From assembly GCA_017457215.1 (NCBI GenBank), contig JAFTHU010000016.1, positions 1-44,769 of the forward strand: a DNA stretch of 44,769 bases, in the 5' to 3' direction. This DNA is from Clostridia bacterium. Its GTDB lineage: Bacteria > Bacillota > Clostridia > Christensenellales > Borkfalkiaceae. A program made the position numbers and the translations under genes. Within the stretch, counting starts at the first letter, position 1. The number at the start of each line of letters is the position of its first letter. The notes beneath the pieces were generated by a model. The model did not search any database and was not told where the DNA came from. It worked only from the letters and a program-made list of their open reading frames with translations. Positions 10,092 through 44,676 of the stretch are shown here, piece after piece.

Positions 10092-10850
10092 TTAAATGAC
10101 CACGATATCCATTGCCTTAAATTGTTCTTTGAGGTCGTCGGGGAAGTTGTCGTCGGTAATCAAAACGTTGATATCTTCCGCGCGGGCAAAGGTATACGAT
10201 TTGATTTTGCCGATTTTGGAGCTGTCCAGCATCATATACAGAAACTTCGCCTTTTTGCAAATAACGCGCAACAGTTCCGATTCCATTTGCGAACTGCAAG
10301 AAAAACCGTTTTCGGGGGTAAAAGCAGAGGCAGAAATGATGGCGATTTCAAAATTTGTATCCGTAAAATACAAAGACGAAAAGGAGGACGCCGTCGCCAA
10401 ATTTTCTTTGATGAGCTGCCCGCCCAAAAGGCTTACCACTACGTTTCTTTTCTTGGCGAGTTCGGTAGCAACGGCAAGACCGTTGGTAAATACGCTGCAA
10501 TAGCGGTCAGGCATTTCTTTGGCGAGATAGAGCGCCGTTGTGCCGCCGTCAAGGAACAAGGAAGCGCCCTCGTCAATTAAATCGGCTGCTTTTTGCGCGA
10601 TTACGATTTTTTCGTCCGTATGAATGGCTGTTTTTTTGGCATACGGCTCGCCCGAGGTCTTTTGAACTTCGCGTACGGACATTGCGCCGCCGCGAACGCG
10701 AATGATTTTCCCTTCTTCTTCTAATTGAAATAAATCCCGACGCAGAGTCATCTGGGAAACGCGGGGAAAGTGTTCTTCTAATTGTTCCAAGGTGAGTTTG
10801 CCACGTTTATCCAAAAGTTCGGCAATTTCTTGAATGCGTTCTCGTTTCAT
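10092..10850 (-). CDS. DeoR-family transcriptional regulator
   Basis: The protein (252 aa) has the DeoR N-terminal helix-turn-helix (RIQEIAELLDKRGKLTLEQLEEHF ... SQMTLRRDLFQLEEEGKIIRVRGGA). An effector domain follows that is homologous to sugar-phosphate isomerases, with DGGTTALYLA near residue 100 and a middle SSFSSLYFTDTNFEIAIISASAF. Such regulators usually repress sugar genes and respond to phosphorylated sugars. No sugar operon is adjacent, so the target is unknown. GGAGG lies 7 bp before the ATG. It is transcribed alone and converges on the PHP operon. Confidence 0.93.
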   Translation of the reverse strand: MKRERIQEIAELLDKRGKLTLEQLEEHFPRVSQMTLRRDLFQLEEEGKIIRVRGGAMSVREVQKTSGEPYAKKTAIHTDEKIVIAQKAADLIDEGASLFLDGGTTALYLAKEMPDRYCSVFTNGLAVATELAKKRNVVVSLLGGQLIKENLATASSFSSLYFTDTNFEIAIISASAFTPENGFSCSSQMESELLRVICKKAKFLYMMLDSSKIGKIKSYTFARAEDINVLITDDNFPDDLKEQFKAMDIVVI

Positions 10851-10886
10851 GTTAAATCCTCCAAGGAGAAATTTTCATTTTACATA

Positions 10887-10915
10887 AATTTACCACAAAA
10901 AATGTGAAAAAGCAA
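10887..10915 (-). promoter_or_regulatory. Likely promoter of the DeoR gene
   Basis: On the minus strand TTGCTT (10915-10910), 17 bp, TAAATT (10892-10887). The spacer carries CACA-N5-TGTG. The rest of 10851-11060 is AT-rich with no gene seen. Confidence 0.55.
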
Positions 10916-11060
10916 GCGTACCGCGCAAAAAAAGTCGTTTTTATAGTTTTTTTTGATAATTTTGCAGATATTAAGAACAATTTTTTCATTTTTGGCTTGT
11001 AAAAAATAACAAAAACAGGAAGGCGAGAGTGTGCGGTTTTTAATTTTTACCTATTTTCGC

Positions 11061-11090
11061 TTGCGGTTTTGCGCGTGATTGTGCTATAAT
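11061..11090 (+). promoter_or_regulatory. Sigma-A promoter of the 208-aa protein
   Basis: TTGCGG (11061-11066), 18 bp, TATAAT (11085-11090), about 30 bp before the ATG at 11122. Confidence 0.75.
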
Positions 11091-11121
11091 AAAAAAGGAA
11101 ATAGGTTCGGGGCGGAGCGTT

Positions 11122-11748
11122 ATGAACGATTTTATTTTAGAATTAGACGAATATTTTTGCGAGAAATATGCAAATTATGATAAACTGTGTGTGTTGCCCG
11201 GTTATAAAATGCCGTTGATGCAAGCTTCGGAGGTGCGTGAAGACGGCAGAACGTACGCCTACACACTTCCCATGGAAACGATGAGTCTTTCTCGTCAGGA
11301 AAACAAGGCGGAGCTTTTGGCAGCGTTAAAAAATCGTATGGTAGACGTTACTTTTTCTTTTTCGTTCCGTCCCATTTGGATTTTCGGACGCATTAAAAAC
11401 GTCTTTTCCAAGTATGCGGTGCATAAAAATTTGAAGTTGATTTTGGAAAAATACAAATGGACGGACGAGGCGGTTTTAGAAAGCATAAACGTTTCCCCCG
11501 AAGTTTGGAAAGGTATTCGCAAAAATAAATACCTGCCGTCGAAAAATTTAATTTTCTCGTTGGCGATTGCGGGGCATTTCACGATGGAGGATACGACGGC
11601 GCTTTTGGCGCTTTGCGGGTACGAATGGAATTACGCTTTGGTAAAAGACGTGGTAATCACTTATCTTTTACGGGAAAAAGTATTCAACCCGACCATGGTG
11701 CAAGCGGCGTTGGACGAATACAAGGTAACAAATCTTTTCATAAAATAA
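11122..11748 (+). CDS. Unknown protein with XRE-like C-terminal domain
   Basis: I do not recognise the N-terminal half (208 aa in total). The C-terminal half (about 105-205) has the layout of the degenerate XRE-type domain found at the end of several Firmicutes regulators. A helix-turn-helix region (ESINVSPEVWKGIRKNKYLPSKNLIFSLAIAG) leads to TALLALCGYEW, a variant of the LLxxAGY motif, and to a YFIE-like end (ITYLLREKVFNPTMVQAALDEYKV). The family link is pattern recognition, not a search. The protein is cytoplasmic, with GGGGCGGAG as ribosome site and its own promoter. It could be a DNA-binding regulator or a phosphoprotein-like sensor; neither is shown. Confidence 0.6.
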   Translation: MNDFILELDEYFCEKYANYDKLCVLPGYKMPLMQASEVREDGRTYAYTLPMETMSLSRQENKAELLAALKNRMVDVTFSFSFRPIWIFGRIKNVFSKYAVHKNLKLILEKYKWTDEAVLESINVSPEVWKGIRKNKYLPSKNLIFSLAIAGHFTMEDTTALLALCGYEWNYALVKDVVITYLLREKVFNPTMVQAALDEYKVTNLFIK

Positions 11749-37882: not shown

Positions 37883-38039
37883 TGGTACCGCTGGCCGGAC
37901 TTGTTCCTTTAGCGGAGACGCCCCGCTCCGACGTTATCAACGTCGTCCTTTGCCGTCAAGTTTTCCATTGGCGAAAATGCGTACGGCAAAGCGTTTTGCT
38001 CTCGCAAAACGGCTCCCACCCTCAAGTCCGTCCAGATTA
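37883..38039. repeat. Hairpin-rich element bounded by inverted copies of a tRNA-Leu 3' end
   Basis: Fragment A (37883-37903) equals the last 21 bases of the tRNA-Leu fragment at 38089 except for one base. At 38023-38035 the same 13-base core returns inverted with one mismatch. Between them lie four consecutive hairpins: AGCGG..CCGCT (about 37911-37927), GACGTT-ATC-AACGTC, TTTGCCGT...ACGGCAAA with an inner TTTTC/GAAAA stem, and GTTTTGC-TCTC-GCAAAAC. No reading frame here is credible. It may be a small repeated element, a recombination site or a structured RNA. Confidence 0.6.
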
Positions 38040-38049
38040 CGCGTATCAA

Positions 38050-38088
38050 TACAAAGCCCCGATTTCTCAACGAGAAATCGGGGCTTTG
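38050..38088 (-). terminator. Intrinsic terminator behind the tRNA-Leu fragment
   Basis: An 18-bp perfect stem (ACAAAGCCCCGATTTCTC with its complement, loop AAC) lies directly after the CCA end on the minus strand and ends in CTTTGTATT. It is the natural terminator of a tRNA gene. Confidence 0.8.
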
Positions 38089-38144
38089 TGGTGCCGCTGG
38101 CCGGACTTGAACCGGCACGGATGTTACTCCGAGGGATTTTAAGG
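38089..38144 (-). pseudogene. 3' half of a tRNA-Leu(UAA) gene, att-site remnant
   Basis: Read on the minus strand, the sequence runs from the anticodon loop (CTTAAAA, anticodon UAA) through the 3' anticodon stem TCCCT and the leucine-type long variable arm (CGGA-GTAAC-ATCCG). It continues through the T arm GCCGG-TTCAAGT-CCGGC to the acceptor 3' strand CAGCGGC-A-CCA. The 5' half is absent: bases before the anticodon (TTTGC) cannot pair with TCCCT, and no acceptor 5' strand (GCCGCTG) follows within 100 bp. Identity therefore stops at the anticodon loop, a known crossover point of tyrosine integrases. I infer that an element integrated here and that it extends to higher coordinates. Confidence 0.8.
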
Positions 38145-38456
38145 CAAATGTGCTTTCAAACTCACAAAAACAAAAATTTTTCAAAAAGTGCGAAAACGGG
38201 GCGATTTTGCACGAAAAACCATTAAAAATGCCCCAAAATTGAAATTTTTACAAAGATGTGACTTTTGCTCTTTTTCTTGTATTTTTCATAGCTTCCCAGA
38301 TTTTCCCAAGGTTTTCCGCCGTTTTAGGCTTTTGCGTGAAAACCGTGAATCCCTTGAAAAACCTGACGAAAATCGGGGGTTTGATAGCATTGGGAACTTT
38401 TTGGGAACTTCACAAAATCCTTTGCGTCTAAAAAACGGAAGGATTTTTTTCGTGTA
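38145..38456. other. AT-rich non-coding stretch at the island edge
   Basis: No gene can be supported here. The longest frame (89 codons from 38188) has no ribosome site and a composition rich in Phe, Arg and Asn typical of chance. Short direct repeats TGGGAACTT occur near 38395-38410. No integrase remnant is recognisable. Confidence 0.5.
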
Positions 38457-38460
38457 ACGT

Positions 38461-38550
38461 ATTTTTCGTGTTTTTACACACTTCCCAAAAAATTCATAAC
38501 GGAATCATTGATGTTTAAGACGCGGTTATTATAACTGCGTCTTTGCTGTA
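38461..38550. repeat. Imperfect direct repeat, left copy, with terminator-like hairpin
   Basis: TTTTTCGTGT-TTTTACACACTTCC, then about 25 bases, then TTTAAGACGCGGTT...AACTGCGTCTTT. It parallels 40029-40118, so the two copies flank the DUF4143 ATPase gene. The right end forms a 12-bp hairpin AAGACGCGGTTA/TAACTGCGTCTT (38517-38543). Confidence 0.55.
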
Positions 38551-38556
38551 AAAAAA

Positions 38557-38583
38557 GGGATTGCGTTTGCAATCCCGAAAAAA
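38557..38583 (-). terminator. Terminator of the DUF4143 ATPase gene
   Basis: An 8-bp stem GGGATTGC/GCAATCCC with a 4-nt loop ends in seven T on the minus strand, just after the stop codon. Confidence 0.9.
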
Positions 38584-39882
38584 TTATAATTCAAGGCTGT
38601 TTTCTTTGAGAAGAAAATCTAAAAGGTTCATAATAACGTAACCTTTTTCATTTCTCCAAAGTTTTGTCCTGTCTTGCGTAATAATGATTTTTTTAAACGA
38701 GTCGTCTATACGGTCAAGTGACGCTTGCTCTTGTGCCATTTTTTCGGCACTAGGAATAGAGAAGGCAGATTGAATGTAATAGCGTTGATTACCTTTGTTG
38801 CATACAAAATCTACTTCCAAATGTTTGGTTTCGCGTTTATCGTTCTCAGTTCTAACAACGTGTTCTATTATGCCAACGTCAACGTTAAAACCACGCATAA
38901 CAAGTTCGTTATAGATTATGTTTTCCATGATATGGGTTTGTTCTTGTTGACGGAAATTAATCCTTGCGTTACGAAGTCCAATATCGCTGAAATAATACTT
39001 AAACGGCGAGTTAATATATTTCCTACCTTTAATATCATATCTTGCAGTTTTTCGTATTAAGAAGGAATCTAAGAGATATTCAATATAAGTGGATACGGTT
39101 TTATCGCTTACGTTCATGCCGTTAGAGACAAAAGTTTTTGCAATTTTGGTTGGATTATTTAACGAACCGATAGAGGAGGCTAAAACATCTATCAAGGTAT
39201 CAATTGCGACGTCGCCACGTAGACGGTTTTTTTCGATAATATCTTTGATATAAGTGTTCTTAAATAAATTGTTGAGATATTCGGCTTTTTCTTCGTCGGT
39301 TTCCATAGTCAAAAGCATAGGCATACCGCCGTAAGTAGAGTATTCGTCCCAAGCGTCGTATTTATCGCCGTATTTGTAGGCGGAATAAAACTCCGCGAAA
39401 GAAAGGGGATTTACGTGAACAACGTCGCCCCGACCACGGAATTCGGTTGCTATATCCGACGATAAAAATTTGGAATTGCTACCCGTAATATATACGTCAA
39501 CGTTTTTTAACCGAAGTAAACCGTTTAAAATTCCGTAAAGGCGAATAGGTTCTTTTGACTTTATTTCTTTATCGGAAATGGCGAACTGTACTTCGTCTAA
39601 AAGGAAATAAAAATTATCGGTTTCATTGGCTATTTTAGAGTATAAAAAAGCCGAAAGTTTATCGGGATCACGATATTCCCGATTGCGGTCATCGTCAAGA
39701 GCAAGTTTAATAATTTGCTCTTGTTTAACGCCTTCGCTAAGTAGATAATCATAGTAAAGGTTGTTAAGAAGATAGCTTTTGCCTGAGCGACGAAGCCCCG
39801 TTATAATTTTTATGCTACCATTATTTTTTTTGCGAATAAGCTTATTGAGATATAAATCACGCTTGATAACCAATTCGTTCAT
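38584..39882 (-). CDS. AAA_14/DUF4143 ATPase
   Basis: The protein (432 aa) has Walker A TGLRRSGKSYLL near residue 29, Walker B FYFLLDEVQF near 92, and the sensor TGSNSKFLSS with FRGRG behind it. The DUF4143 half (about 210-420) contains DKTVSTYIEYLLDSFLIRKTARYDIKGRKYINSPFKYYFSDIGLRNA and EVDFVCNKG, a nuclease-like E-V-D-F pattern. Such proteins are widespread, often horizontally moved, and their role is unknown. It is a single gene with a consensus promoter (39934-39962) and its own terminator, and it lies between imperfect direct repeats. AAGGAGC precedes the ATG. I take it as island cargo. Confidence 0.93.
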   Translation of the reverse strand: MNELVIKRDLYLNKLIRKKNNGSIKIITGLRRSGKSYLLNNLYYDYLLSEGVKQEQIIKLALDDDRNREYRDPDKLSAFLYSKIANETDNFYFLLDEVQFAISDKEIKSKEPIRLYGILNGLLRLKNVDVYITGSNSKFLSSDIATEFRGRGDVVHVNPLSFAEFYSAYKYGDKYDAWDEYSTYGGMPMLLTMETDEEKAEYLNNLFKNTYIKDIIEKNRLRGDVAIDTLIDVLASSIGSLNNPTKIAKTFVSNGMNVSDKTVSTYIEYLLDSFLIRKTARYDIKGRKYINSPFKYYFSDIGLRNARINFRQQEQTHIMENIIYNELVMRGFNVDVGIIEHVVRTENDKRETKHLEVDFVCNKGNQRYYIQSAFSIPSAEKMAQEQASLDRIDDSFKKIIITQDRTKLWRNEKGYVIMNLLDFLLKENSLEL

Positions 39883-39912
39883 AAAAAGCTCCTTATTTCG
39901 GGTAATTTGGTT

Positions 39913-40018
39913 TTGTCAACTTTTTCCGTAATAAGTATACTATATTTTAGCGAACGTGTCAAGAAAAATTTGGTGCATATTACGAAAAAAATGAACTTGT
40001 CAACGTTTCCCGTAATAA
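39913..40018. repeat. Two 22-bp operator-like direct repeats
   Basis: TTGTCAAC-T-TTTTCCGTAATAA (39913-39934) and TTGTCAAC-G-TTTCCCGTAATAA (39997-40018) match at 20 of 22 positions. The first touches the minus-strand -10 box of the ATPase gene. They are candidates for a repressor-binding site. Confidence 0.65.
39934..39962 (-). promoter_or_regulatory. Consensus promoter of the DUF4143 ATPase gene
   Basis: On the minus strand a perfect TTGACA (39962-39957), 17 bp, TATACT (39939-39934). Confidence 0.85.
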
Positions 40019-40028
40019 TATTGACAAA

Positions 40029-40118
40029 AATTTTTCGTGTATTTACACGCTTTCAAAGAAACGACGGAGAAATTAAAGGTATTTAGGACGTGGTTTTTAA
40101 CTGTATCTGTTATTTGTA
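40029..40118. repeat. Imperfect direct repeat, right copy
   Basis: TTTTTCGTGT-ATTTACACGCTTTC, then about 25 bases, then TTTAGGACGTGGTT..AACTG. It resembles 38461-38550 in order and spacing. A third, shorter relative (ATTTAGGACGCAGTT) stands at 42484, after the next operon. Confidence 0.5.
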
Positions 40119-40147
40119 TATAGCAGTTAAAAAAAGTGTAAAGATAA

Positions 40148-40191
40148 ATTTTTAAGAAAAATATTGTGTGGTAAGAATATTTTTAAGAAAA
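40148..40191. promoter_or_regulatory. Operator-like repeats before the XRE-ATPase-TOPRIM operon
   Basis: ATTTTTAAGAAAA is repeated exactly at 40148-40160 and 40179-40191 (31-bp period, about three helical turns). Overlapping them is an inverted repeat AAAAATATT-N10-AATATTTTT (40157-40184). The site lies about 26 bp upstream of the -35 box and could bind the XRE protein encoded first in the operon. Confidence 0.5.
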
Positions 40192-40216
40192 TATGTCAAA
40201 TATAACATAAAAACAA

Positions 40217-40245
40217 TTGCTAAAACCGATATTTTATTGTATAAT
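40217..40245 (+). promoter_or_regulatory. Promoter of the XRE-ATPase-TOPRIM operon
   Basis: TTGCTA (40217-40222), 17 bp, TATAAT (40240-40245), about 40 bp before the ATG. Confidence 0.8.
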
Positions 40246-40286
40246 TAATATGCAAGGGAAATAAAATTCTAAATAGGAGCGCTATT

Positions 40287-40607
40287 ATGAGTGATTTTCA
40301 AAGTTATCTTGATAAAGCATTAAAGAACTTGGATGTAAATGCTACAAAAAAAGAAGACGATTCTTTACAAATGATTGACTATGATATAGCAAAAGAAATT
40401 AGTGAATTGCTGGTATCTGTAAGAAAAGAGCTTAATATATCGCAGAAACAGTTATCCCAAAAAACAGGTATACCGCAAGCAAACATAAGTAAAATAGAAA
40501 ACGGAAAATATTTGCCAAGCTTATTGATATTAAAAAGATTATGTGACGGGCTTGGCAAAAAGTTGGTGGTAGATTTTGTTGATTTCGAGGAGAACTTGGA
40601 GGATTAA
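40287..40607 (+). CDS. XRE-family regulator (HigA-like)
   Basis: The protein (106 aa) has about 35 N-terminal residues and then an XRE helix-turn-helix: ISELLVSVRKELNISQKQLSQKTGIPQANISKIENGKYLPSLLILKRLCDGLG, ending KLVVDFVDFEE. This form with the DYDIAKEI lead is common among antitoxins of HigA type, but no HigB/RelE toxin gene is near. AGGAGCGC precedes the ATG. It is the first gene of a three-gene operon with an ATPase and a TOPRIM protein, with operator-like repeats upstream, so it probably controls the operon. Confidence 0.88.
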   Translation: MSDFQSYLDKALKNLDVNATKKEDDSLQMIDYDIAKEISELLVSVRKELNISQKQLSQKTGIPQANISKIENGKYLPSLLILKRLCDGLGKKLVVDFVDFEENLED

Positions 40608-40608
40608 T

Positions 40609-41721
40609 ATGTCAAAATATTTAAAAGATTTATTTATCGGACAATATAGGGGAATTAAAAATTTAGAGTTAAAGGCATTGAATTGTGTCAATGTTATTGT
40701 CGGCGATAACAATTCGGGTAAATCGTCTATATTAGAATCCATTTATTTATTGCGTGCACCTTTTAGCTTTGATAATGTTTTACGTACGGCAAGAATGAGA
40801 GATGTCGGCGTTTTTACTGGTCCGAATCTTTATACAAATTTTTTAAGTATTTTTCCTAAAAACAATGAAATTCAGAAGATTTATATTCAATCCATCGGAG
40901 ACGCTGGGGAGATTTCTTTAGAAATTGAAGGGGAAGAAAAATCGGTGTTGATAGAAGAAAAAGACGTGCAAATTTTTCCGTCTTCTGTTCGATCGGGTTA
41001 TACGAAAAGATTGCTTGGTCAAGAAGCGTCTGCATTTGTGGGTAGAATGTTTTCTTCTATTAATTCGAAACGTAAAGAAACGGATATTAGACTTACAAAT
41101 TATAGCAGATATTCGCTTTTAAGAAATAATCGAGATATGATTATAAATATTGATTATTTATCGCCAATTTCTCATATTACGGAGAATGCGTTTAATAATA
41201 TTGTCAAAAATGATACGTATAAAGATATTTGCATTCAATTAATACGCTTGTTTGATAGAGATATTGAGGATTTGGTATATATCAAGGATGATAATTCTTC
41301 CCGAGCTGTAGAATACGTTAGAAGTAAGAAAAAAGGATTAATGCCGTTATCTACCTATGGTGACGGTATTAAAAAAGTTTTGTCTTTAGCAAACGGGATA
41401 ATAAAAGCGCAAGGTGGCGTTTTATTAATTGATGAAATTGACACCTCTATTCATTATAAGTACTATGGTGAGATTTTTAATTTTTTAATAAAAGCTGCGA
41501 TGAAATGGGATGTTCAAATTTTTATCACTACGCACAGTTTAGAAGCTATAGATGAGATTTTAAACACACAAAATTATAACGGAAAAATTGATGAAAGGCA
41601 CGATTTAATAAATGTAATCACCTTAAAGAAAGACGTTGAAGGTGATTTAAAGGTGCGCTCTATGAAAGGTTCTGAAGTTTATAGGAACAGAGAACTTTTC
41701 GGCTTTGAGGTGCGTTCATGA
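40609..41721 (+). CDS. AAA ATPase of OLD/ABC type
   Basis: The protein (371 aa) has an SMC/OLD-like ATPase fold split across its length. Walker A is VGDNNSGKSSILES near residue 32. The signature-like PLSTYGDGIKKVLSLANGI lies near 247, Walker B is VLLIDEIDTSIHY near 274, and the switch histidine is in IFITTHSLEAIDE near 306. It ends in a short basic tail. GGAGGA sits 5 bp before ATG 40609, which makes the earlier TTG (40576) unlikely. The next gene overlaps by 4 bp and encodes a TOPRIM-like protein. OLD proteins carry both parts in one chain; here they are split, as in PARIS (AriA-AriB). Confidence 0.88.
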   Translation: MSKYLKDLFIGQYRGIKNLELKALNCVNVIVGDNNSGKSSILESIYLLRAPFSFDNVLRTARMRDVGVFTGPNLYTNFLSIFPKNNEIQKIYIQSIGDAGEISLEIEGEEKSVLIEEKDVQIFPSSVRSGYTKRLLGQEASAFVGRMFSSINSKRKETDIRLTNYSRYSLLRNNRDMIINIDYLSPISHITENAFNNIVKNDTYKDICIQLIRLFDRDIEDLVYIKDDNSSRAVEYVRSKKKGLMPLSTYGDGIKKVLSLANGIIKAQGGVLLIDEIDTSIHYKYYGEIFNFLIKAAMKWDVQIFITTHSLEAIDEILNTQNYNGKIDERHDLINVITLKKDVEGDLKVRSMKGSEVYRNRELFGFEVRS

Positions 41722-42458
41722 TAAGAATTATTTTGTGCGAAGGGGAAACGGACGCAACATTATTGGGTTTATATTTAGAAAAAACAACGTCTTGGAAATA
41801 TAATACTGAACGCAAACCGAAATTAAAAATGAATATTCCGCAAACTGTTCCGCTTAGCAATAAAAAATCATTCAACTATATTAAAGATAATGAAGACCTT
41901 CTTATTTGTGCTGTTGGTGGAAAAGATAATTTTGGTGGATTTTTTACGGAATATATATATCCAATGATTGAAACAGCACATCTTGGAGAAACAGATTTCC
42001 GCATTGCATTGATGACTGACGCTGATGAGCAAACGGTTCATGCCATAGAAACAGATATTTTGGAGCAATTGTCGCCCAATATAAAAAGTATAAAAAATAA
42101 CACTTGGAAGAAGAATATTTTATCAAACAAGTATCAAGAAAAGGCGAATGTTAATTTTTTATTAACGGTGATTCCGCAAGAAGGCGCAGGGGCGTTAGAA
42201 ACGGTTCTTTTAAGTGCATTGGCTGAAAAAGATGACGGCACATACATAGTAGAAGAAAGTGAAAATTTTATTGATGAATTAGAACCTGTATCTTATTTGT
42301 CAACAGATAGATTAAAATTAAAATCTAAATTGGGAGTGGCCTTGTCTGTTTTTTATCCCGACAAAGTCTTTTCTCAATTTGATGAGCAGCTTCAAATCGT
42401 TGACTGGGGAAAGTCAAAAGAGCTTGCAAAATGTTTAAGCGAAATCATAAAAATCTAA
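41718..42458 (+). CDS. TOPRIM-like protein (DUF3226 type), partner of the ATPase
   Basis: The protein (246 aa) starts IRIILCEGETDATLLGLYLE, the TOPRIM glutamate motif. It has ALMTDADEQTV (D-x-D) near residue 97 and a later VIPQEGAGALETVLLSALAE, which fits DUF3226/OLD-type TOPRIM domains. The three acidic elements are those that bind metal in OLD nucleases, so nuclease activity is plausible but unproven. It overlaps the ATPase gene (ATGA) and has GAGGTG upstream, so both are made together. In PARIS the TOPRIM partner is of the DUF4435 family; this one is different in sequence, so it is related in design, not a clear PARIS member. Confidence 0.8.
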   Translation: MIRIILCEGETDATLLGLYLEKTTSWKYNTERKPKLKMNIPQTVPLSNKKSFNYIKDNEDLLICAVGGKDNFGGFFTEYIYPMIETAHLGETDFRIALMTDADEQTVHAIETDILEQLSPNIKSIKNNTWKKNILSNKYQEKANVNFLLTVIPQEGAGALETVLLSALAEKDDGTYIVEESENFIDELEPVSYLSTDRLKLKSKLGVALSVFYPDKVFSQFDEQLQIVDWGKSKELAKCLSEIIKI

Positions 42459-42488
42459 GTTAAGGGATAATTAAATTATTCGTATTTA

Positions 42489-42516
42489 GGACGCAGTTTG
42501 CAAAGCTGCGTCTTTA
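42489..42516 (+). terminator. Terminator of the XRE-ATPase-TOPRIM operon
   Basis: GACGCAG (42490-42496) pairs with CTGCGTC (42506-42512), extended by inner T/A pairs, followed by TTTAAT. Its left flank ATTTAGGACGC resembles the repeats around the ATPase gene. Confidence 0.75.
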
Positions 42517-42884
42517 ATATAGTACAAAGCAGGTAAGAGTAGTCGTATTCATTTGAATTTGGCGTTAGATATGGTAAAGTATACCTGATTTATTCCTTTT
42601 TCTTGAAAAAGCAACTACCAATCTATTATTCAAGGTCGGGAAAAGTGTAAAAGTGATATAAACATTCTCGTATTATATTGCAACGGGTAAAATGGATATA
42701 AGGAGTTTTTGCCTATTCGTAAGCGCGCTCCAAAAAAGAAAGGGGACTAACATATAGGAGGGTAGACAGATTTCTACATTTCGTGTTGAGATGTGTCTAT
42801 AAAAAAATATGAAATAATTGCATAATAGAAAAGAGAATTCTACTAAATTTTAGGCGCAACCTTTTTTACATTATACGAAAAATC
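42517..42884. other. Non-coding stretch between operon and Fic gene
   Basis: No complete gene is visible. A 19-codon open piece ending PIRKRAPKKKGD (stop 42748-42750) could be the tail of a lost gene. A weak hairpin TAGACA...TGTCTA lies near 42762-42800. An AGGAGGG at 42757 has no start codon at a useful distance. Confidence 0.4.
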
Positions 42885-42913
42885 TTTACTTTTTATTTAA
42901 AATATGCTATAAT
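42885..42913 (+). promoter_or_regulatory. Promoter of the Fic gene
   Basis: TTTACT (42885-42890), 17 bp, TATAAT (42908-42913). The sequence TAAAGATT/AATCTTTA occurs around it on both sides (near 42880 and 42917), a possible operator for the encoded HTH. Confidence 0.75.
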
Positions 42914-42937
42914 AAGTAAAGATTTAGGAGCAAAAAT

Positions 42938-43855
42938 ATGATTTCTTACGATAATTTAGTAAAGATTTTGAAAGAAAACGGCTTGAAGAAGTCTGATTTG
43001 ACAAAGGTGCTTGATATTTCATCGCGTACGGTTGCCAAGATTAGCAAAGGCGAAAAAATTGCCGAAAACGTGTTGCGGAAAATTTCGGAATATTTCGCTT
43101 GCCGTGTGGAAGATTTGTGTCGAGAAGTTTGTGATAATCCCGTTTTACAGATCTTGCGCGAAGAAATGGAAATGAAAATTTTAGGCGGACTCTATCACGA
43201 AACGCAGGTACGCTTAACGTATAACTCTAACCGCATCGAAGGTAGCAAGCTCTCCGAAGACCAAACCCGTTTGATTTTTGAAACGAATACAATCGGTGCG
43301 GAAGAAGGGGTTCCCGTTGACGATATTATCGAAACGAATAATCACTTCCGCGCGATTGATTATGTTATCACGCATGCGGAAGAGGAGTTGACGGAAACGT
43401 TTATCAAAGAGCTACATCGCATTTTGAAAACAGCGACGTCAGATTCCCGTCTTTCGTGGTTTAGGGTTGGCGATTATAAGTCAAAGCCGAACACGGTAGG
43501 CGGTATGCCAACCGTTTCCCCTAACCAGGTATGCGTTGAAATACAAAAATTGCTTACTTGGTACGCAGGGATTGAGAAGAGTTCTTTTGAAAATATCGTA
43601 GAATTTCACTACCGATTTGAAAAAATCCACCCTTTCCAAGATGGGAACGGCAGGGTGGGACGTTTGGTTGCGTTCAAAGAATGTTTGCGTAATAATATCG
43701 TTCCGTTTATTATCGAAGACAGCAAAAAGATGTTCTATTATCGTGGCTTACGAGAGTGGAACAACGAAAAGGGCTTTTTAATTGAAACCTGCCTTGACGG
43801 ACAGGACACCTATAAAGCGTTGTTGAAATATTTTGAAATTGAGATAAGGAGTTAA
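42938..43855 (+). CDS. HTH-Fic fusion protein
   Basis: The protein (305 aa) begins with an XRE-like helix-turn-helix (about 1-60, LVKILKENGLKKSDLTKVLDISSRTVAKISKGEKIAENVLRKISEYF). It then has the inhibitory helix SNRIEG near residue 97, which fits the (S/T)xxxE(G/N) motif, and the Fic core HPFQDGNGRVGR near 231. Fic enzymes attach AMP or similar groups to target proteins. The Glu of the inhibitory helix blocks ATP positioning, so activity is probably restrained in the same chain. The fusion of a DNA-binding domain suggests that it controls its own promoter. TAGGAG precedes the ATG. Peroxiredoxin follows after 4 bp. Confidence 0.93.
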   Translation: MISYDNLVKILKENGLKKSDLTKVLDISSRTVAKISKGEKIAENVLRKISEYFACRVEDLCREVCDNPVLQILREEMEMKILGGLYHETQVRLTYNSNRIEGSKLSEDQTRLIFETNTIGAEEGVPVDDIIETNNHFRAIDYVITHAEEELTETFIKELHRILKTATSDSRLSWFRVGDYKSKPNTVGGMPTVSPNQVCVEIQKLLTWYAGIEKSSFENIVEFHYRFEKIHPFQDGNGRVGRLVAFKECLRNNIVPFIIEDSKKMFYYRGLREWNNEKGFLIETCLDGQDTYKALLKYFEIEIRS

Positions 43856-43859
43856 ATAT

Positions 43860-44318
43860 ATGTTAGAAGTTGGAATGAAAGCACCGAATTTTACGTTGCC
43901 CGATAAAAACGGGAATATGGTTTCTTTGTCCGATTTTCTCGGCAAGAAAGTGATTTTGTATTTTTACCCGAAAGATAATACGCCCGGTTGCACTCGGCAG
44001 GCGTGTGCGTTTGCGCTTAAAAATAAGGAAATAGAGAATAAAAATGCGGTGGTTATCGGCATTAGCAAGGATAGCGTGAATTCGCATTTTAATTTTGCAA
44101 CAAAATACAATTTGCCGTTTGTTTTGCTTTCGGACACCGAACTTTCAGTAATTCAAGCGTATGGAGTTTGGCAAGAGAAAAAGTTGTACGGAAAAGTGAG
44201 TATGGGCGTTGTGAGAACGACGTTCTTAATCGACGAGCAGGGCATTATAAAAGCGGTTGTGCCCAAAGTAAAACCCGACACGAACGCCGACGAAATGTTA
44301 GCATTGTTAGGGGATTAA
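43860..44318 (+). CDS. bcp: Thioredoxin-dependent peroxiredoxin (Bcp/PrxQ type)
   Basis: The protein (152 aa) has the Bcp pattern: GMKAPNFTLPDKNGNMVSLSDFLGKKVILYFYPKDNTPGCTRQACAF, with the peroxidatic Cys at about residue 43 in TPGCT. The resolving Cys is five residues later, as in PrxQ. It reduces hydroperoxides with thioredoxin in the cytoplasm. GGAG lies 10 bp before the ATG, inside the end of the fic gene, and the two genes are 4 bp apart, so they share a transcript. The pairing of Fic and peroxiredoxin has no obvious functional reason. Confidence 0.95.
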   Translation: MLEVGMKAPNFTLPDKNGNMVSLSDFLGKKVILYFYPKDNTPGCTRQACAFALKNKEIENKNAVVIGISKDSVNSHFNFATKYNLPFVLLSDTELSVIQAYGVWQEKKLYGKVSMGVVRTTFLIDEQGIIKAVVPKVKPDTNADEMLALLGD

Positions 44319-44366
44319 AAACGAACAAATACTTGAAACTTTTTTGAAGAAAGCAACTAAAACTGA

Positions 44367-44395
44367 TTGTAATATTTTAGTAAAAATATTATAAT
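44367..44395 (+). promoter_or_regulatory. Promoter of the small XRE gene
   Basis: TTGTAA (44367-44372), 17 bp, TATAAT (44390-44395). Confidence 0.7.
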
Positions 44396-44451
44396 AATAT
44401 TGTAATTCATTTATCCATAGGTGGAGATTTTCATTATATGGAGGTCAAACA

Positions 44452-44676
44452 ATGGATTACAAAGTACAACTGAACAAGAGAAAGACGGGCGAAAATATCT
44501 ATTTTCTAATCGACCAATCTAAATACACGCGGGAAGACGTTGCGGATTATCTTCAATTGGCTTCACCGAGAGTGATTTATGATTGGGAAAACGGCACTAA
44601 AATGCCTAGTACGGAAAATTTGTTTAATTTAGCAAAGCTTTTCAATGTTCAAATCGAAGACATCCTTGCGATATAG
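44452..44676 (+). CDS. Small XRE-family HTH protein
   Basis: A 74-aa protein made almost entirely of one helix-turn-helix: TGENIYFLIDQSKYTREDVADYLQLASPRVIYDWENGTKMPSTENLFNLAKLFNVQIEDILAI. Such proteins bind DNA as dimers and often regulate mobile or defence genes. GGAGGT lies 6 bp before the ATG. Its terminator overlaps the stop codon. Its target may be the dyad at 44692 and the promoter at 44737, both just downstream. The gene it would control lies outside the window. Confidence 0.88.
   Translation: MDYKVQLNKRKTGENIYFLIDQSKYTREDVADYLQLASPRVIYDWENGTKMPSTENLFNLAKLFNVQIEDILAI

Follow-up and report, generated by a model that had tools for sequence, protein, structure and literature searches.

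The window, meaning the whole 44,769-nucleotide (nt) stretch of DNA that was analysed (contig JAFTHU010000016.1 of the Clostridia bacterium assembly GCA_017457215.1), carries a three-gene operon encoding a small helix-turn-helix (HTH) protein, an OLD/ABC-type ATPase and a TOPRIM protein. An initial annotation, made from the sequence letters, had proposed this trio as a split OLD-type defence system. The open reading frame (ORF) calls in this gut Clostridia genome place all three genes on the plus strand, at 40287-40607 (HTH), 40609-41721 (ATPase) and 41718-42458 (TOPRIM), with HTH and ATPase 1 nt apart and ATPase and TOPRIM overlapping by 4 nt (ATGA), confirming that the genes are tightly coupled and that the operon is real. 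The trio had also been credited with its own promoter and terminator. A sigma-70/A-type promoter-like site, TTGCTA-17-TATAAT, lies at 40217-40245 on the plus strand and matches 10 of 12 positions in a consensus scan; by its sequence it is a plausible promoter for the trio, although the number of promoter-like matches in the upstream region shows no clear excess over shuffled sequence (19, against a mean of 15.8 with a standard deviation of 4.0). On the 3' side, a terminator-type hairpin at 42482-42520 (plus strand) folds at -17.9 kcal/mol (z -6.8), as expected of the claimed terminator, though it was not among the hits of a simple terminator scan.

The ATPase (370 residues) is matched over residues 1-369 by the PADLOC model PDLC04608 of family PDC-M38A (1.6e-112) and by Pfam AAA_21 (5.3e-21); the next PADLOC models are AbiLi (1e-40) and then AriA (4.7e-23). 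The Walker A, Walker B and H-switch motifs attributed to it are present as GDNNSGKS (residues 32-39), LLIDE (272-276) and THS with H309, and the key residues of these motifs are invariant in a seven-row alignment. Solved relatives of the trio proteins were sought by sequence and profile searches of the PDB, in which the ATPase alignment profile matched 30 sequences at E values up to 0.001, including PtuA, RecF, Rad50, OLD (6p74), retron and AriA chains, the last at 3.4e-6; the RecF and Rad50 matches fall mainly around Walker A. At three other loci (L059, 4779-7031; L020, 3822-6014; L025, 3798-6041) the ATPase is longer by about 390 residues at its N-terminus, and in each case a TOPRIM-like ORF adjoins it with overlap. 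The extended protein of L059 matches PADLOC PDLC04607 at 9.9e-292 and ParB_N below the cut-off (0.016), and that of L020 has no ParB_N match.

The TOPRIM protein (246 residues) is best matched by PDC-M38B (model PDLC04619, 1.1e-71), while Pfam gives a weak, sub-threshold match to an OLD-like TOPRIM (0.0036). The acidic motifs pointed out in the initial annotation are conserved, with E8, D101 and D103 kept in all seven rows of the alignment; in an eight-row alignment that includes viral relatives, E8 and D101 are invariant and D103 varies. The protein is predicted to act as a metal-dependent nuclease. It had been placed with DUF3226 rather than with DUF4435, the family of AriB, and this placement is borne out through its relatives: Pfam DUF3226 does not match the window protein itself, and we assign it to the DUF3226 group by relationship because 10 of the 11 TOPRIM relatives tested pass the cut-off (L010, L012, L014, L015, L021, L022, L028, L075, L076 and L077), L015 being 40% identical to the window protein, with L016 alone falling below. 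The only convincing solved relative is 2p62, the hypothetical protein PH0156 (4.5e-4 with one alignment, 1.9e-8 with another). Viral scans with the window TOPRIM and with an alignment of its close relatives returned no relatives, and neither did tblastn of the window TOPRIM against phages and plasmids.

The first gene encodes a 106-residue XRE/Cro-type HTH protein (HTH_3, 6.9e-15), whose best PDB chain is 8tac 'DBP48' (5.3e-8), which we take to be a designed protein, and whose second is the HigA antitoxin 6af3 (7.7e-7). With the NCBIfam HigA model TIGR02607 it scores 13.0 bits (E 0.068), far short of the cut-off of 47.7, and we read it as HigA-type because the operator matrix described below also marks a HigBA operon. 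No Gp49/HigB gene was matched among the scanned proteins of 38584-44673, and the plus strand directly before the HTH gene has no ORF of 60 residues or more. The protein therefore looks, by these comparisons, like a HigA-type regulator that would work without HigB.

A putative binding site for this regulator emerged from comparison of the trio loci. In L014, L076 and L077 the HTH gene is preceded by palindromes of the form TATGY-N8-RCATA; motif search gives two per locus, and a matrix scan adds a third in L076. A matrix built from six sites of these three loci, with the window excluded, scores 40191-40210 at 22.1 bits, the highest value in the 44.8-kb window (the next is 12.5), and the palindrome within it, TATGTCAAATATAACATA at 40192-40209, is our proposed operator; the site is also present in a near-copy of the locus, L005. 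In the 18 loci whose ATPase has no HTH gene, the best score upstream of the ATPase is 7.1 bits (300 bases each, 194 in L083). Across 127 loci, some of them overlapping, matches of at least 16 bits comprise trio operons, the viral locus L042 (16.4) and one non-trio site in L014 (23.2), which lies 16 bases before a Gp49 gene (HigB-type, 1.1e-25) followed by an HTH gene, in a HigBA-type operon. Under generic palindrome scoring the seven trio promoters did not stand out from shuffled sequence (8 to 45 of 60 shuffles were as good, and 45 of 60 for the promoter of the window); only the comparative matrix made the distinction. Of the operator-like repeats described earlier, the palindrome is thus backed by other loci, although by generic scoring it is no better than shuffled sequence.

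Conservation of the trio was surveyed in 26 loci with an ATPase match; L018, whose stretch contains a TOPRIM fragment but lacks an ATPase, was not counted. A TOPRIM-profile match (E up to 0.01) adjoins the ATPase in 24 of these, so that the two genes do co-occur. The exceptions are L058, in which the next ORF has an EG..D motif that the profile does not match, and L082; among the linked loci, the TOPRIM ORF of L074 is only 95 residues long and L059 has a weak match (0.0015). In the reverse direction, the TOPRIM profile matched seven genomes, the window's included, with the ATPase adjacent in six and L018 as the seventh. An HTH gene lies immediately 5' of the ATPase in eight loci (the window, its near-copy L005, L014, L015 and L074-L077; seven without the near-copy), with gaps of -20 to +2 nt, and the ATPase-TOPRIM overlap is 4 nt in all eight. 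For the other 18, a search of up to 1 kb before the ATPase (a shorter stretch for some, L010 and L083 among them) gave no HTH-like frame, and because so many loci have the ATPase without it, the HTH appears dispensable to the ATPase-TOPRIM core.

In a maximum-likelihood tree of the ATPases (28 rows, being the 26 loci and two viral rows; midpoint root), the eight HTH-linked proteins all fall on one side of a 100/99 branch. Identity matrices for the seven distinct trio loci are correlated for HTH and ATPase (r 0.93, Mantel 0.0042) and for ATPase and TOPRIM (r 0.92, Mantel 0.006), and by this measure the three proteins diverge in step. The earlier description of the HTH as a HigA-like addition to the pair accordingly agrees with the 6af3 match, the operator common to a HigBA operon and the single grouping of HTH-linked ATPases. 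The family is sparse: the TOPRIM profile matches 3 of 391 genomes in the class, 2 of 396 in the order and 4 of 398 in the phylum, each count including the window's own genome. With a threshold of 1e-30, the ATPase alignment matches 6 of 391 genomes of the class; with 1e-40, it matches 11 of 200, 2 of 103 and 2 of 10 genomes in three families. Distant relatives of the ATPase were found in 143 plasmid records, Klebsiella accounting for 130 (among the 20 matches listed, 18 are to records of about 4 kb), and a search of phages gave three short matches. Two of the three plasmid records opened have an annotated DUF3226 gene beside the ATPase, and the third, L011, has an unannotated TOPRIM-profile ORF that extends to the end of the record. 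Of 32 loci on viral contigs, 8 have both ATPase and TOPRIM (E up to 1e-3).

Positions 38088-42093 of the window recur in L005, from a Clostridia metagenome-assembled genome of roe deer caecum, at 98.75% identity over 4,008 aligned bases and with different flanks. The left end of this match coincides, within one base, with the CCA end of the 3' half of a tRNA-Leu(UAA) gene (38089-38143, minus strand), recognised by tRNA 3'-end identity and by the start of the L005 homology. The last 29 nt of the tRNA half are found in six viral-contig stretches and end the intact tRNA-Leu(taa) genes that ARAGORN calls in L129, L130 and L132. Because a near-copy stands at another place and the left edge is the 3' half of a tRNA-Leu gene, the block that carries the trio is, on sequence comparison, mobile. 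The island had been called tRNA-bounded, and this holds for the left edge, which is a partial tRNA-Leu gene, but on one side only, as no further copy of the tRNA-Leu end was found in the window at up to 3 mismatches. ARAGORN and Rfam (at gathering thresholds) report no tRNA in the window, and with permissive Rfam settings the island edge yielded only matches at chance level. A shorter copy of the tRNA-Leu 3' end lies at 37883-37903 (minus strand); within 37883-38109 the tRNA-Leu 3' end thus occurs twice, 206 bases apart, and an 18-nt perfect inverted repeat (38051-38089) reaches the second copy. On the other side, the L005 match stops inside the TOPRIM gene, and L005 has a different TOPRIM C-terminus. 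In the TOPRIM ORF of L005 (7110-8426) unrelated sequence takes the place of the second half, and a TraG-type gene follows at some distance; the change may stem from recombination or from an assembly join.

The block also holds a divergent neighbour of the trio, an ATPase gene with AAA_14 and DUF4143 domains (38584-39882, minus strand; 2.4e-26 and 5.8e-19) that matches PADLOC PDC-S01 at 3.4e-107 and also adjoins the trio in L005 and L077. It was considered as a fourth component and rejected, as it was also found in a control region. A 22-nt near-identical direct repeat flanks this gene (38462-38483 and 40031-40052); as a cassette or genome-wide repeat it was rejected, with two copies only, within 3 mismatches, in the 1.26-Mb genome (73% complete). 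The next gene downstream of the trio is an HTH-Fic gene at 42938-43855 (PADLOC PDC-S04, 2.5e-107), and in L075 an antitoxin-like gene with a SocA/Panacea domain (10525-11541, 4.1e-26) lies upstream of the trio locus. Among 13 same-genus genomes, the window's included, ppdK is present in 11 and bcp in 4, and the distance between the two genes is about 0.3 kb in L104, 7.2 kb in the window and 4.3 kb in L105. At 2471-8540 of L105, also of the same genus, a PDC-S41 SLFN-g3 helicase gene lies between ppdK and bcp and a GmrSD gene just beyond bcp; the ppdK gene there is cut by the contig start, and the genome has a second ppdK match. It is possible that this site is a defence hotspot.

With the observed gene structure, protein families, intact catalytic motifs, conserved linkage, co-divergence, conserved operator-like site and mobility of the block as its basis, we think that the trio is probably a mobile, HigA-regulated abortive-infection module of toxin-antitoxin-like design, in which the ATPase restrains the nuclease. 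The PDC-M38A ATPase would form a complex with the PDC-M38B TOPRIM protein and hold the nuclease inactive until the ATPase senses a trigger derived from phage, by which the nuclease is freed or activated. The freed nuclease might then cut cellular nucleic acid, either RNA or tRNA as AriB does or DNA as OLD and GajA do, and growth would stop ahead of phage release. The HigA-type HTH would bind the palindrome beside its own promoter, repress the operon and so keep the balance between ATPase and TOPRIM. That the ATPase would hold the TOPRIM protein until a phage signal is proposed by analogy with two precedents: toxic TOPRIM_OLD proteins of Clostridium algidicarnis and Streptococcus agalactiae are neutralised by AAA proteins in E. 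coli (PMC10440598, which speculates that AAA:TOPRIM_OLD pairs are abortive-infection systems), and the AriB tRNase is sequestered by an AriA hexamer (PMC12409363).

Several results weigh against this proposal. The operator is absent from L015 and L075 among the seven distinct trio loci, and the site of L074 is weak (11.0 bits, the best of its own locus). Sixteen of the 18 HTH-less ATPase loci carry a TOPRIM-profile match. The ATPase genes of the window and L005 differ by one synonymous and four non-synonymous changes, so that purifying selection is not shown. The other ppdK loci fetched have no window match after ppdK, and for this reason the reading of the site as variable rests on two relatives, L104 and L105. 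The excess of defence genes around the loci is modest: in a survey within 7 kb of 11 loci (seven with the trio and four without HTH; PADLOC at 1e-20), 109 ORFs matched 39 PADLOC families, against 16 families for 120 control ORFs from the same genomes, and some of the models are generic. (One of 110 ORFs, antisense over ppdK, was dropped, and one control stretch was the first 16 kb of the window.) In PMC10440598, a third pair neutralised by an AAA protein yielded no positives when screened with phages, and AlphaFold predicted no convincing AAA-toxin interface; PMC12409345 reports no defence in a native host for the PADLOC candidates PDC-M63AB and PDC-S04, the latter being the family of the HTH-Fic neighbour in the window.

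The same features could be accommodated by a pure addiction module, in which the trio stabilises its own mobile block and senses no phage. A HigA-type regulator with an operator and a mobile block with a tRNA edge would suit such a role, and related AAA:TOPRIM pairs behave as toxin-antitoxin systems (PMC10440598); however, PADLOC counts the family as a candidate for defence, the ATPase profile shows kinship with PtuA, OLD, retron and AriA chains, and the corresponding site of L105 holds defence-type cargo. We regard this explanation as unlikely. The HTH might also do more than repress. Because HigA-type HTH proteins can serve as antitoxins as well as repressors, that of the trio could be a direct antitoxin or a sensor that contacts the TOPRIM protein or the ATPase, and its retention by all eight members of the ATPase grouping, with divergence that tracks that of both partners, is in keeping with such a tripartite system. 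HTH is also named as a neutralising domain in PMC10440598. Yet the ATPase is found without an HTH in 18 of 26 loci and repression alone would account for the operator, and we judge this role quite improbable. A host function in DNA repair or housekeeping appears very remote indeed: the profile matches to RecF and Rad50 chains and a cell-cycle role for an archaeal OLD-family protein (PMC12796447) would fit it, whereas the TOPRIM profile is very patchy at every rank surveyed, the trio sits in a mobile block and the best profile matches of its ATPase and TOPRIM are to defence candidates and not to a housekeeping family.

If the trio is indeed a phage-sensing, HigA-regulated module, it offers a compact and testable case of a toxin-antitoxin circuit joined to an ATPase/nuclease effector, in which regulator and operator are both named and seven divergent versions from nature can be compared. 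As for its origin, we tentatively suggest that a HigA antitoxin may have been captured once, without HigB, by a split OLD-type ATPase/TOPRIM module and have then co-evolved with it as a three-part system, the HTH coupling transcription, and perhaps neutralisation or sensing, to the ATPase-held nuclease. If true, this would mean that the control circuit of a classical type II toxin-antitoxin system had merged with a PARIS-like effector; split ATPase/TOPRIM systems have so far been known mainly through PARIS.

Among known systems, HigBA is similar in its regulator, as the window HTH resembles the HigA chain 6af3 and the predicted operator is common to the Gp49-HTH operon of L014, but here the HTH is partnered with an ATPase and a TOPRIM protein and has no HigB/Gp49 gene beside it. 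PARIS likewise splits an ABC-type ATPase and a TOPRIM protein between two genes (AriA and AriB, class 4 OLD; PMC10568477 and PMC12796447), and its AriA model matches the window ATPase; however, PDC-M38A and AbiLi score higher, and the window TOPRIM matches neither AriB nor DUF4435 at E values up to 1. Gabija and class 1 OLD differ in that GajA and OLD are single chains, and the following gene of any size downstream is HTH-Fic rather than the GajB helicase. AbiL is comparable as a bicistronic ATPase/TOPRIM-like abortive-infection system (PMC10440598), with its AbiLi model matching the window ATPase and scoring best for the plasmid relative L012, but AbiLii, described as RloB-type in the same paper, is missing among the nine PADLOC families that match the window TOPRIM at E up to 1. 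Identification of the trio as PARIS, Gabija or AbiL was therefore ruled out by the missing AriB/DUF4435, the two-gene layout without GajB and the missing AbiLii. The closest likeness is to PDC-M38, whose A and B models are the best PADLOC matches for the adjacent, overlapping ATPase and TOPRIM genes; the two are compared by models, which are named A and B only, and not by a system definition. In the literature collection that was searched, PDC-M38, DUF3226 and PF11536 gave no paper. The ATPase-TOPRIM pair is thus an already catalogued defence candidate, which supports as a candidate the split OLD-type system first proposed, and what is new here is the dedicated, apparently HigA-type regulator with its predicted operator, which marks the window grouping as a distinct variant.

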